DNA of 64,000 nt from Gelidibacter gilvus. GTDB taxonomy: Bacteria; Bacteroidota; Bacteroidia; Flavobacteriales; Flavobacteriaceae. The notes beneath the pieces were generated by a model. The model ran no database searches. It worked only from the letters and a program-made list of their open reading frames with translations, and was not told the DNA's origin. How positions within the stretch are numbered: position 1 is the first letter of the stretch; each line of letters starts with the position of its first letter. A program made the position numbers and the translations under genes. The stretch lies in contig NZ_SDDZ01000018.1 of NCBI RefSeq assembly GCF_004115975.1, positions 1-64,000 on the forward strand, read 5' to 3'. This document shows positions 35,964-37,083 of the stretch, piece after piece.

Positions 35964-35995
35964 TTGTTACTATTTAAAGAAAAGGTATATATTTG
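35964..35995 (+). promoter_or_regulatory. Promoter of the tRNA-Pro / GIY-YIG locus
   Basis: TTG (35964-35966), a 21-bp gap and TATATTTG (35988-35995). It reads towards the first tRNA-like relic at 36048 and was presumably the original tRNA-Pro promoter before the GIY-YIG units came between. Confidence 0.7.
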
Positions 35996-36047
35996 CACCT
36001 CGATTTTGAGGAATCAAGGTGTTTTGAAATTTTGAAGATAACCAATT

Positions 36048-36139
36048 CGGGGTGTATCACGCTAAGGCGTGACAAGTCTACCCAGGTTATCGCGTCACGC
36101 CCAGGGCGTGAAGGTCGTCACGCTTGAGGCGTGACCACC
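36048..36139 (+). pseudogene. tRNA-Pro-like relic 1, three arms replaced by palindromes
   Basis: It starts with the tRNA-Pro acceptor strand CGGGGTG and keeps GGTTATCGCG and AGGTC at the positions flanking the anticodon arm. The arms themselves are replaced: TCACGC/GCGTGA at 36057-36072 (D-arm side), TCACGCC/GGCGTGA at 36095-36111 (anticodon arm), and GTCACGC/GCGTGAC at 36117-36135 (T-arm). It then resumes with CACC, leaving only four acceptor pairs. Confidence 0.8.
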
Positions 36140-36153
36140 GAAACTGAAAAACT

Positions 36154-36417
36154 ATGGATTATACGGTTTACATATTGTATAGCCAAAAACGTTCAAGATA
36201 TTATGTTGGTCAAACAGATAATATCAATGAGAGATTAATAAGACACAATAAGGGCTTAGTAGATTCAACTAAATCAGGTGCACCATGGGAATTGATTTTT
36301 ACAGAAAAAGTAAACACGAGATCCAATGCACTAATGTTAGAAAAGAAGATAAAAAAACGAGTAGCCAAAAGATATATTGAAGATAACCAATTCGGGGTGT
36401 ATCACGCTAAGGCGTGA
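36154..36417 (+). CDS. GIY-YIG endonuclease-domain protein, copy 1
   Basis: An 87-residue single-domain GIY-YIG protein: YTVYILYSQKRSRYYVGQT carries the two tyrosine motifs and the glycine, followed by the conserved Arg (ERLIRHNKGLVDSTK) and the metal-binding Glu (ALMLEKKIKK). It belongs to the UPF0213/YhbQ-like stand-alone group. The end IEDNQFGVYHAKA is encoded by the 24-nt tRNA-leader repeat (36378-36401) and by the palindrome of relic 2, which supplies the TGA stop. Almost identical to copy 2; the first 82 residues differ at three positions. Confidence 0.9.
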   Translation: MDYTVYILYSQKRSRYYVGQTDNINERLIRHNKGLVDSTKSGAPWELIFTEKVNTRSNALMLEKKIKKRVAKRYIEDNQFGVYHAKA

Positions 36418-36505
36418 CAAGTCTCACCCGGTCTGCCAAGCCGAAGGCATGGTTATCGCGCCGCGTTTGGGACGCGGAGGTCGTCACGCTTGGGGCGTGA
36501 CCACC
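36393..36505 (+). pseudogene. tRNA-Pro-like relic 2, D- and T-arms replaced by palindromes
   Basis: It begins CGGGGTGTA and has TCACGC/GCGTGA at 36402-36417, an extra TGCC...GGCA hairpin near 36433-36449, an anticodon arm and flanks identical to the real tRNA over about 33 nt (36450-36482, including TTTGGGA), then GTCACGC/GCGTGAC at 36483-36501 in place of the T-arm and CACCC closing five acceptor pairs. It is intermediate between relic 1 and the intact tRNA. Confidence 0.8.
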
Positions 36506-36518
36506 CAAACAGTAAATT

Positions 36519-36767
36519 ATGGATTATACGGTTTACATATTGTATAGCCAAAAACGTTCAAGATATTATGTTGGCCAAACCGACAATATCGAAAAAAGAT
36601 TGATACGACACAATAAGGGCTTAGTAGATTCAACTAAATCAGGTGCACCATGGGAATTGATTTTTACAGAAAAAGTAAACACGAGATCCAATGCACTAAT
36701 GTTAGAAAAGAAGATAAAAAAACGAGGAGCCAAAAGATATATTGAAGATAACCAATTCGGGGTGTAG
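36519..36767 (+). CDS. GIY-YIG endonuclease-domain protein, copy 2
   Basis: An 82-residue near-duplicate of the preceding gene (NE to EK and V to G changes, shorter end). The last codons IEDNQFGV are read from the tRNA leader and acceptor strand; the TAG stop (36765-36767) is formed by tRNA-Pro nucleotides, so the gene overlaps the functional tRNA by 10 nt. Transcribed in the same direction as the tRNA. Whether it acts as a homing-type nuclease at tRNA-Pro sites is inference. Confidence 0.9.
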   Translation: MDYTVYILYSQKRSRYYVGQTDNIEKRLIRHNKGLVDSTKSGAPWELIFTEKVNTRSNALMLEKKIKKRGAKRYIEDNQFGV

Positions 36768-36835
36768 CGTAGCCCGGTTATCGCGCCGCGTTTGGGACGC
36801 GGAGGTCGCAGGTTCGAATCCTGCCACCCCGACCA
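36758..36835 (+). tRNA. tRNA-Pro (TGG anticodon)
   Basis: A complete cloverleaf: acceptor CGGGGTG pairs with CACCCCG, D-arm region GCGTAGCCCGGTTATCGC, anticodon arm CCGCG-TTTGGGA-CGCGG with anticodon TGG, variable AGGTC, T-arm GCAGG-TTCGAAT-CCTGC, discriminator A, and an encoded CCA end (36833-36835). Followed by a strong terminator at 36841-36874. Confidence 0.96.
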
Positions 36836-36840
36836 GTAAA

Positions 36841-36874
36841 AGCCTACAAAATCATAGATTTTGTAGGCTTTTTT
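36841..36874 (+). terminator. Terminator of tRNA-Pro
   Basis: A 13-bp perfect stem AGCCTACAAAATC / GATTTTGTAGGCT with a 3-nt loop, then a T-run. Confidence 0.9.
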
Positions 36875-36995
36875 CATTTGTGGCGTTGCCAACGCAGTTG
36901 AGCATAAGTTAACAAATGAAAAAAGCCGTGAAAACCGCCCTTCGCGGTTTTAGGCTTTGATGAGCAACGACTCCATTATAAGGATCAATGAAGAT

Positions 36996-37014
36996 AATCC
37001 TGCCACCCCGACCA
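36996..37014 (+). pseudogene. Duplicated tRNA-Pro 3' end
   Basis: A 19-nt exact repeat (AATCCTGCCACCCCGACCA) of the tRNA-Pro 3' end at 36817-36835, without the rest of a tRNA. Like the real copy it is followed by an AAGCCT... terminator and CATTTGTGGCGTTGCCAA. Either a deleted second tRNA-Pro or an attachment-site duplication. Confidence 0.8.
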
Positions 37015-37015
37015 T

Positions 37016-37052
37016 AAAAAGCCTAATAAATTAAAAATTTATTAGGCTTTTT
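37016..37052. terminator. Terminator after the tRNA 3' fragment
   Basis: AAAAAGCCTAATAAATT / AATTTATTAGGCTTTTT with a 3-nt loop. It has T-runs on both strands and could also end minus-strand transcription from the methyltransferase gene. Confidence 0.8.
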
Positions 37053-37083
37053 ACATTTGTGGCGTTGCCAATGCTAGTTATTC

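Follow-up and report, generated by a model that had tools for sequence, protein, structure and literature searches.

The tRNA-Pro Array

The window (the whole stretch of Gelidibacter gilvus DNA that was analysed, 64,000 nt) carries at positions 35988-37074 an array of nuclease genes and hairpin-armed tRNA copies at a tRNA-Pro gene, and this array is real, recurrent and structured. From left to right it consists of the promoter-like TATATTTG, relic 1, gene 1, relic 2, gene 2, an intact tRNA-Pro(TGG), a terminator and a 3′ tRNA fragment. The features are as follows.

35988..35995, + strand: promoter-like TATATTTG, upstream of the entire array; fits TAnnTTTG
36034..36047, + strand: GAAGATAACCAATT direct repeat, copy 1 of three (others at 36379-36392 and 36744-36757), each abutting CGGGGTGTA
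36048..36139, + strand: relic 1, a copy of tRNA-Pro bearing hairpins on the D side and at the anticodon and T arms (sequence, folding)
36057..36072, + strand: D-arm hairpin of relic 1, TCACGCTAAGGCGTGA (sequence)
36095..36111, + strand: anticodon-arm hairpin of relic 1, occupying exactly the place of the 17-nt anticodon arm
36117..36135, + strand: T-arm hairpin of relic 1, substituting the T arm
36154..36417, + strand: GIY-YIG gene 1, 87 aa (ORF, PF01541), its final codons within relic 2
36393..36505, + strand: relic 2, a copy of tRNA-Pro bearing hairpins on the D side and at the T arm, its anticodon arm native (sequence, folding)
36402..36417, + strand: D-arm hairpin of relic 2 (sequence)
36434..36449, + strand: additional D-loop hairpin of relic 2, TGCC...GGCA (sequence, folding)
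36461..36477, + strand: native anticodon arm retained in relic 2 (sequence)
36483..36501, + strand: T-arm hairpin of relic 2, substituting the T arm
36519..36767, + strand: GIY-YIG gene 2, 82 aa (ORF, PF01541), its stop being the TAG at tRNA positions 8-10
36758..36835, + strand: intact tRNA-Pro(TGG) (ARAGORN, Rfam)
36838..36874, + strand: terminator-like hairpin 3′ of the tRNA (sequence)
36996..37074, + strand: partial copy of the tRNA-Pro 3′ end and terminator, 86% to 36817-36895, preceded by GAAGATAA

The TAnnTTTG motif is the -7 promoter motif of Bacteroidota. The GAAGATAACCAATT repeat, which within the nuclease genes codes for EDNQF, stands before all three tRNA starts, so the repeat unit is a tRNA copy plus a nuclease gene; the nuclease unit measures ~300-410 bp. 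Gene 1 terminates inside the first hairpin of relic 2 and gene 2 inside the tRNA. The partial tRNA-Pro 3′ copy lies 179 bp downstream of the first copy. A 108-aa frame containing WQDSNLRPPRPKRG (36566-36892, minus strand) runs antisense to the tRNA and gene 2 and was read as no gene.

A sequence-only reading of this DNA had described relics 1 and 2 as tRNA-Pro copies with TCACGC...GCGTGA hairpins, each standing before a near-identical GIY-YIG gene, with an intact tRNA as the third copy. Sequence and alignment to the adjacent tRNA-Pro(TGG) confirm the two copies, and the genes are 96% identical. ARAGORN and Rfam find the third copy intact at 36758-36835; ARAGORN and Rfam RF00005 detect this tRNA alone, and both relics go unrecognised as functional tRNA.

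Structure of the Relics

Relic 1 is a series of CGGGGTGTA, hairpin, TTATCGCG, hairpin, AGGTC, hairpin and CACC. Its acceptor and inter-arm pieces are retained, as had been proposed. The related proposal that its arms were swapped for palindromes holds for the anticodon and T arms, which are clean exchanges, but the D arm shows mostly an insertion. Relic 2 bears the D and T hairpins and the real anticodon arm ascribed to it, together with the further D-loop hairpin, which the earlier reading overlooked.

These hairpins are not chance. The TCACGC hairpin appeared in none of 1000 first-order Markov simulations of the relics, and the 8 GC-rich 6-bp hairpin hits observed in the relics were likewise reached by 0/1000. 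The fold z-scores of the two relics are -3.7 and -2.6 against shuffles. The suggestion that the cloverleaf geometry survives is contradicted by single-sequence folding. The anticodon and T hairpins of relic 1 are one and the same palindrome and so base-pair with one another. In either relic, the D-arm linker is paired with the 5′ acceptor strand.

The GIY-YIG Protein

Both proteins match Pfam PF01541, at 58.5 and 60 bits (cut-off 22.6). Residues Y6, Y17, G19, R27, H31 and E63 are invariant in all 24 sequences, and we take these six to be the GIY-YIG active site. By this score and by these residues, the predicted proteins belong to the GIY-YIG superfamily, and their genes look active. In 28 of 28 pairs dN/dS lies between 0.07 and 0.37 (purifying selection). 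At 82-87 aa the protein is the GIY-YIG domain alone. Its fold is predicted with a pLDDT of 92.8, and among solved relatives both sequence and fold are nearest to UPF0213 proteins and Slx1. The NCBIfam group I intron endonuclease model gave 19-21 bits, below its cut-off of 56.

The protein has no match in PHROG. Since the PADLOC hits were only weak and partial, a reading as a defence system was dropped. Phage relatives amount to 10 records, 37-39% identical, and the single region inspected has no annotated tRNA; plasmids gave one match. Viral contigs have 7 loci on 6 contigs, 29-41% identical, with a tRNA at 0/7. A phage or plasmid origin was also dropped, close relatives being absent among the phages, plasmids and viral contigs searched.

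In a tree of 86 rows, 68 of them labelled, the tRNA isotype changes 26 times against a shuffled mean of 43.4 (0/200 shuffles as low); the alignment behind this tree is short in columns, many of its forks are unresolved, and labels cluster through near-copies by themselves. A 47-row group (SH-aLRT 81, unstarred) unites 36 Pro loci and 11 unlabelled rows, with both of the layouts described below mixed in it. The reconstructed nuclease phylogeny tracks tRNA isotype.

Recurrence beside tRNA Genes

Relatives at E ≤ 1e-15 were found in 29 of 249 family genomes, the own genome counted. Across the class, 167 of 396 genomes have relatives; the class is presumably Bacteroidia, because the named relatives are Flavobacteriaceae. 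Among 65 homologous loci, which are the best-scoring matches and no random draw and exclude L001-L003 (own genome), L041 and L042, a tRNA immediately adjoins the nuclease gene in 50, lies within 500 bp in 7 and is absent in 8. It is never on the opposite strand (0/65). Four of the eight tRNA-less loci are at contig ends, and another, L151, has a tRNA-Pro further out. The gene is directly upstream of the tRNA in 31 of the 50 adjoining cases, and the tRNA directly upstream of the gene in 19. For 4 of these 19 the tRNA is tRNA-Ser(GCT), which neighbours tRNA-Pro in other loci; three of the four are cut by a contig end. All 20 additional regions, hand-picked with arrays preferred, have a tRNA (17 are new loci and 3 extend counted ones). 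In the numbering of loci, L158/L196, L171/L197 and L151/L202 are each one locus listed under two entries. L003, the third own-genome relative (32% identical), and L041 and L042, distant relatives from other phyla, have no tRNA nearby.

The isotypes are Pro, Ala, Met, Arg, His, Ser, Asp, Leu, Val, Asn and Thr. On its opposite flank the nuclease gene mostly has a defective, hairpin-bearing copy of the same tRNA. Units stand in tandem, for example 2 in the window, 4 each in L007 and L148, and 5 in L193.

Two single loci were also observed. In L011 (1-400), at a contig end, a GIY-YIG gene is bordered on either side by the same tRNA copy with hairpins for the anticodon and T arms, and an intact tRNA is absent from the stretch fetched. 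In L134 (1000-1400) tandem tRNA-Pro relics have apparently only the first and last GIY-YIG codons between them, a natural internal deletion.

No pair of empty and occupied alleles was found when the genus of L146, the genus of the window and the second own-genome tRNA-Pro were compared. The gene downstream of L146 is conserved in 51 of 61 genomes of its genus, and 19 other loci fetched have no tRNA there. The right neighbour gene of the window was matched in just 2 of the 8 further genomes of the genus, and there only partially, at 65%. The second own-genome tRNA-Pro (C33), next to a tRNA-Ser as in relatives, is without a unit; its flanks were compared by eye.

Two Layouts of the Unit

The loci follow two layouts. 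Type U runs from a modified tRNA 5′ part through the nuclease gene to the intact tRNA; type D runs from the intact tRNA and its terminator through the nuclease gene to a modified tRNA 3′ part with a terminator. Either way, the dead copy mostly retains its outer part, which is the 5′ part if the copy is upstream and the 3′ part plus terminator if it is downstream, and the portion adjoining the nuclease gene is eroded. A hairpin at the D, anticodon or T arm marks the point where the dead copy ceases to match the tRNA.

Of 36 type-U entries, two of which are one and the same locus, 23 have the nuclease stop codon within the tRNA, and in 20 of those 23 it is the TAG at tRNA positions 8-10, in Pro, Ala, Met and Arg tRNAs. 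The 90 nt preceding the relic contain the motif TAnnTTTG at 22 of 35 type-U loci (shifted control 5/35), and it occurs before the intact tRNA in 6/35. For type D it stands before the tRNA in 19 of 32 loci (control 0/32) and before the nuclease gene in 0/32. A promoter-like motif upstream of the relics suggests that they are transcribed. The sequence-only reading had raised the idea of a tRNA-mimicking RNA; the motif in type U agrees with the transcription that this idea needs, but the fold of relic 1 weakens the mimicry.

Positions of the Hairpins and Evolution of the Relics

A script found a flank-anchored hairpin in 50 of 68 loci, or 44 of 68 after removal of native arms, terminators and AT-rich hairpins. 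By-eye reading of the other 24 loci gave a relic hairpin in 16. The eight loci without a clear hairpin are L008 (cut by the contig end), L016, L027, L040, L150, L156, L159 and L202.

The left end of the hairpin coincides exactly with the first base of an arm in 32 of 60 hairpins and in 13 of 39 after de-duplication (binomial P 3e-8, with 3 chances in 60), and the right end is exact in 11 of 41 de-duplicated cases (P 7e-8, 2 in 60). For these counts, tRNA-Ser(GCT) neighbours, three hairpin sequences that are native arms and any hairpin lying beyond the 3′ end of the tRNA were dropped, and AT-rich and some spuriously anchored hairpins were retained. Since the search demanded perfect 6-bp stems, pairing as such is built into the result and position is not. 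Both ends are exact at the anticodon arm in L013, L148, L157, L198, L208, L209 and L210, and at the T arm in L007, L010 and L038. Pure insertions into the D or T loop are seen in L158, L206, L212 and L167. The anticodon-arm stems vary among loci with pairing preserved, in 8 types (10 rows minus L019, which is of the TCCCGC type and off by one, and L167, which has the native stem). Palindromes in relatives are not random with respect to tRNA structure, and relics align to tRNA; on neither count is the earlier claim refuted.

The T loop is kept by no type-U relic. Five of 34 scored positive, and all five are explained: in L006, L012, L034 and L038 the match is in the neighbouring tRNA-Ser, and L170 is a misclassed type-D locus. 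The T-loop 9-mer is kept in 11 of 31 type-D relics, and therefore the T loop is not the sole target.

How much have the relics diverged in comparison with the genes beside them? For 27 of the 28 pairs of unit copies, the relic difference, which is uncorrected, is below the corrected gene dS. For example, the tandem relics of L035 differ by 0.000 over 107 columns at a gene dS of 0.80, and the relics of window gene 2 and L004 differ by 0.139 at a dS of 2.5 (saturated). The exception is the window itself, where the two relics differ by 0.149 at a gene dS of 0.14; this divergence arises because relic 2 retains the native anticodon arm where relic 1 has a hairpin. In L033 the anticodon arm is a hybrid, its 5′ half hairpin and its 3′ half native, which suggests recombination with the intact tRNA.

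Hairpins elsewhere in the Genomes

The pattern TCACGCN{3,16}GCGTGA has 10 sites in the 4.63-Mb own genome, 5 of them in the window, and the reversed-pattern control has none. Nine of the 10 are in tRNA relics and one is a plain terminator. Outside the window, tandem tRNA-Leu(TAG) relics have two of the hairpins, each substituting the anticodon arm; a third substitutes the T arm of a tRNA-Pro 3′ fragment that ends an apparently integrase-bearing insertion, and a fourth is at the T-arm position of tandem tRNA-Gly(TCC) 3′ fragments. Four of the nine relic sites thus have no adjoining GIY-YIG gene: the five own-genome GIY-YIG relatives (E ≤ 1e-6) are located elsewhere. As the Leu, Gly and Pro-fragment hairpins have no neighbouring GIY-YIG gene, the arm swap needs no nuclease in cis. 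The nuclease/palindrome element acting on tRNA hairpins that the earlier reading envisaged gains support, in that the trio of GIY-YIG gene, intact tRNA and hairpin-modified copy of this tRNA recurs at many isotypes, with hairpins on exact arm boundaries far more often than by chance. Action of the nuclease on the hairpins would be putative, and swaps also occur nuclease-free.

All 14 other genomes have the TCACGC pattern, with 1-13 sites each among the matches listed; the reversed control gave 1, 1 and 2 sites in three of them and 0 in eleven. Fifty sites in 13 other genomes were examined by eye, a reading that mostly omitted the GIY-YIG loci already collected, and relics of Leu, Gly or Pro tRNAs accounted for 15 of them and terminators, coding sequence, other repeats or other places for 35, so the TCACGC hairpin sequence is not exclusive to tRNA relics. 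The same-genus genome G013 has a Leu array with hairpin-swapped fragments, and its GIY-YIG relatives are only distant (best E 4e-9).

The core GAACGAATTCATTCGGGC of another hairpin was found exactly once in each of three of four genomes tested, from three genera and always within the relic, the neighbouring tRNA being Met in two of them and Ala in one; the fourth genome is without it. Single-copy and at the locus only, this hairpin belongs to the nuclease unit, a behaviour unlike that of REP sequences.

Four Y1_Tnp (RAYT-like) matches were found in the own genome. An origin of the hairpins by REP/RAYT insertion was ruled out for TCACGC and GAACGAATTCATTCGGGC only, by their low genome-wide copy number. 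L007, L014 and the tRNA-Gln and tRNA-Leu arrays contain CTTCGA...GCTCAG-like palindromes, which presumably resemble dispersed repeats. Own-genome tandem 3′ fragments of tRNA-Gln(TTG) and tRNA-Leu(TAG) (L069 1650-1800, L084 3990-4537) have CTGAGC...GTCGAAG inside the T arm and are nuclease-free.

A second tRNA-Pro(TGG) of identical sequence adjoins tRNA-Ser(GCT) in the own genome (L083, C33:291000-303000; 8700-3750, minus strand). It is followed by a tyrosine-recombinase-like frame, ~5 kb of DNA and a tRNA-Pro 3′ fragment with a TCACGC T arm, and this insertion ends at a terminator region common to the window.

Comparison with Known Systems

The closest known case is the phage protein SegB. SegB is a free-standing GIY-YIG homing endonuclease of T-even phages, its cuts map within tRNA genes, with the motif RAWTSGAAC at 23 of 83 sites, and it is required for the tandem amplification of a 718-bp tRNA-Tyr+segB unit (PMC13096335). 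The same paper describes short homology between the tRNA 5′ end and the segB 3′ end and many isotypes in phages, and its authors point out that the donor allele is cut poorly by free-standing enzymes of the GIY-YIG type (PMC13096335). The words 'hairpin' and 'palindrom' are absent from the main text of that paper.

The present arrays share with SegB a GIY-YIG gene adjoining a tRNA, tandem tRNA+nuclease units (the amplification process being presumed here), the homology in the overlap of tRNA 5′ and nuclease 3′ ends, and the many isotypes. They differ in lying on bacterial chromosomes, in a protein of ~82 aa, in nuclease lineages that track isotype and in the hairpin-modified tRNA copy within the unit. 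RAWTSGAAC fits the T loop of the intact tRNA (GATTCGAAC, minus strand 36812-36820) and has no match in either window relic; the window holds 4 matches against 7.4 expected, so the motif is not enriched.

Free-standing homing endonucleases have a separate DNA-binding region after the GIY-YIG domain, and the window proteins differ from them in having none beyond that domain. Like them, they are encoded by their own frame outside any intron or intein, beside a tRNA that may be the target. Since the protein has no region beyond the domain, it is not itself a SegB, and "works like SegB" is probably a fair reading.

In domain size and fold the protein resembles UPF0213 proteins and Slx1. The small UPF0213 GIY-YIG proteins are COG2827, and we know of no tRNA association for them or for Slx1. 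Slx1 works with and needs Slx4 and has a further domain for Slx4 binding, whereas the present protein is domain-only, with no such domain. REP/RAYT systems share the short GC-rich palindromes in non-coding DNA; here, unlike there, the two counted hairpins are low-copy and tied to tRNA relics in the genomes counted, and the unit has no RAYT gene. Integrative elements that enter tRNA genes carry a tyrosine recombinase, regenerate the host tRNA and leave the displaced tRNA part at the far end. The arrays have the latter two traits in common with them but no recombinase gene, the GIY-YIG frame being alone in the unit. An apparently genuine element of this type sits at the second tRNA-Pro of the own genome. 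The rtT repeats of E. coli tyrT are, like those seen here, tandem repeats of a tRNA 3′ end behind the tRNA gene; to our knowledge they have neither a nuclease gene nor swapped arms. A literature search for 'rtT RNA' gave none among the matches listed, and a limited search found no report of an exact exchange of a tRNA arm for a hairpin.

Possible Origin of the Array

As judged from sequence, the unit comprises an arm-modified copy of a host tRNA and an active-looking GIY-YIG gene, is capable of tandem arrangement, and stands beside one intact tRNA of many possible isotypes. This recurrent arrangement points to an undescribed kind of tRNA-dwelling cassette. The array may be a minimal, free-standing, SegB-like GIY-YIG cassette that dwells at tRNA genes, its spare tRNA copy modified by hairpins; we give this reading, with its putative cutting step, about even chances. 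The nuclease would cut the tRNA gene inside an arm, and recombination via the kept tRNA segments would copy the unit beside the tRNA and amplify it in tandem. The intact tRNA would be regenerated because the host requires it. In the spare copy, the hairpins would both mark the cut site and do away with it, and would abolish tRNA function, while sparing the flanking homology.

Several observations speak against a SegB-like cassette. Hairpin-swapped tRNA fragments exist without the nuclease (Leu, Gly and the Pro 3′ fragment, and the Leu array of G013). The T loop is not the sole target, 8 of 68 loci lack a clear hairpin, and L003, L041 and L042 have no tRNA in their vicinity. In addition, the protein is domain-only, no empty/occupied allele pair was found, and close relatives are missing among phages, plasmids and viral contigs.

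A bolder version, which we advance only tentatively, is that of a new minimal class of mobile element made of a GIY-YIG nuclease and a hairpin, with the arm of a tRNA gene as its target. Its nuclease would recognise the cloverleaf, either by its sequence or in folded form as DNA, the cut arm of the spare copy would give way to the hairpin, and nuclease-free derivatives would spread as hairpin-bearing arrays of tRNA fragments.

The relic could instead be a transcribed tRNA-derived element in the untranslated region of the nuclease mRNA, setting its expression or processing. Type-U transcripts would then contain relic, nuclease mRNA and tRNA, and the RNase P cut at the tRNA would remove the nuclease stop codon. 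The single promoter-like motif ahead of the array in both types and the stop codons within the tRNA, mostly at positions 8-10, agree with this, as do the 8 types of anticodon-arm stem with preserved pairing and the small change of relics at saturated synonymous sites (window gene 2 and L004; the tandem copies of L035). But about half of the loci have their relic on the 3′ side of the gene (31 type D, 34 type U), the fold of relic 1 is not a cloverleaf, and the window relics differ no less than their genes do at synonymous sites. Gene conversion could also conserve relics, and the hybrid arm of L033 looks like such a case. We regard an RNA element of this kind as unlikely.

It is improbable, in our judgement, that the protein acts like Slx1 on the four-way junction of a tRNA gene that adopts a cloverleaf by extrusion or as a single strand, with arms exchanged hairpin for hairpin in the repair of branched DNA. 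Such an action would account for the exactness at both arm ends (7 loci at the anticodon arm, 3 at the T arm) and for the kinship with UPF0213 proteins and Slx1. It leaves the source of the hairpins unexplained, no gene for a partner such as Slx4 was seen, and arms are swapped also where no nuclease gene is adjacent.

We find it just as improbable that the arrays are debris of the tRNA tandem duplications common here, whose spare copies decay and gather palindromes without selection, with the nuclease as passenger: this would suit the nuclease-free Leu, Gly and Gln arrays with hairpins and the RAYT-like matches of the own genome, and the 35 of 50 TCACGC sites outside tRNA relics (GIY-YIG loci mostly omitted), but not the exact arm boundaries, the invariant catalytic residues (24/24) under purifying selection (28/28 pairs), the isotype clustering on the nuclease tree, or the fact that the TCACGC and GAACGAATTCATTCGGGC hairpins are no genome-wide repeats.

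Biological Significance

The exact exchange of a tRNA arm for a hairpin is a kind of change of which our limited literature search found no report. The coexistence of a nuclease with its tRNA has been named an open question for phage by the SegB authors (PMC13096335). If the SegB-like cassette is the right reading, tRNA-linked nucleases of this kind would be present on bacterial chromosomes throughout a class (167 of 396 genomes), and these would offer many natural experiments in which a nuclease coexists with an essential tRNA gene and the host is not killed.
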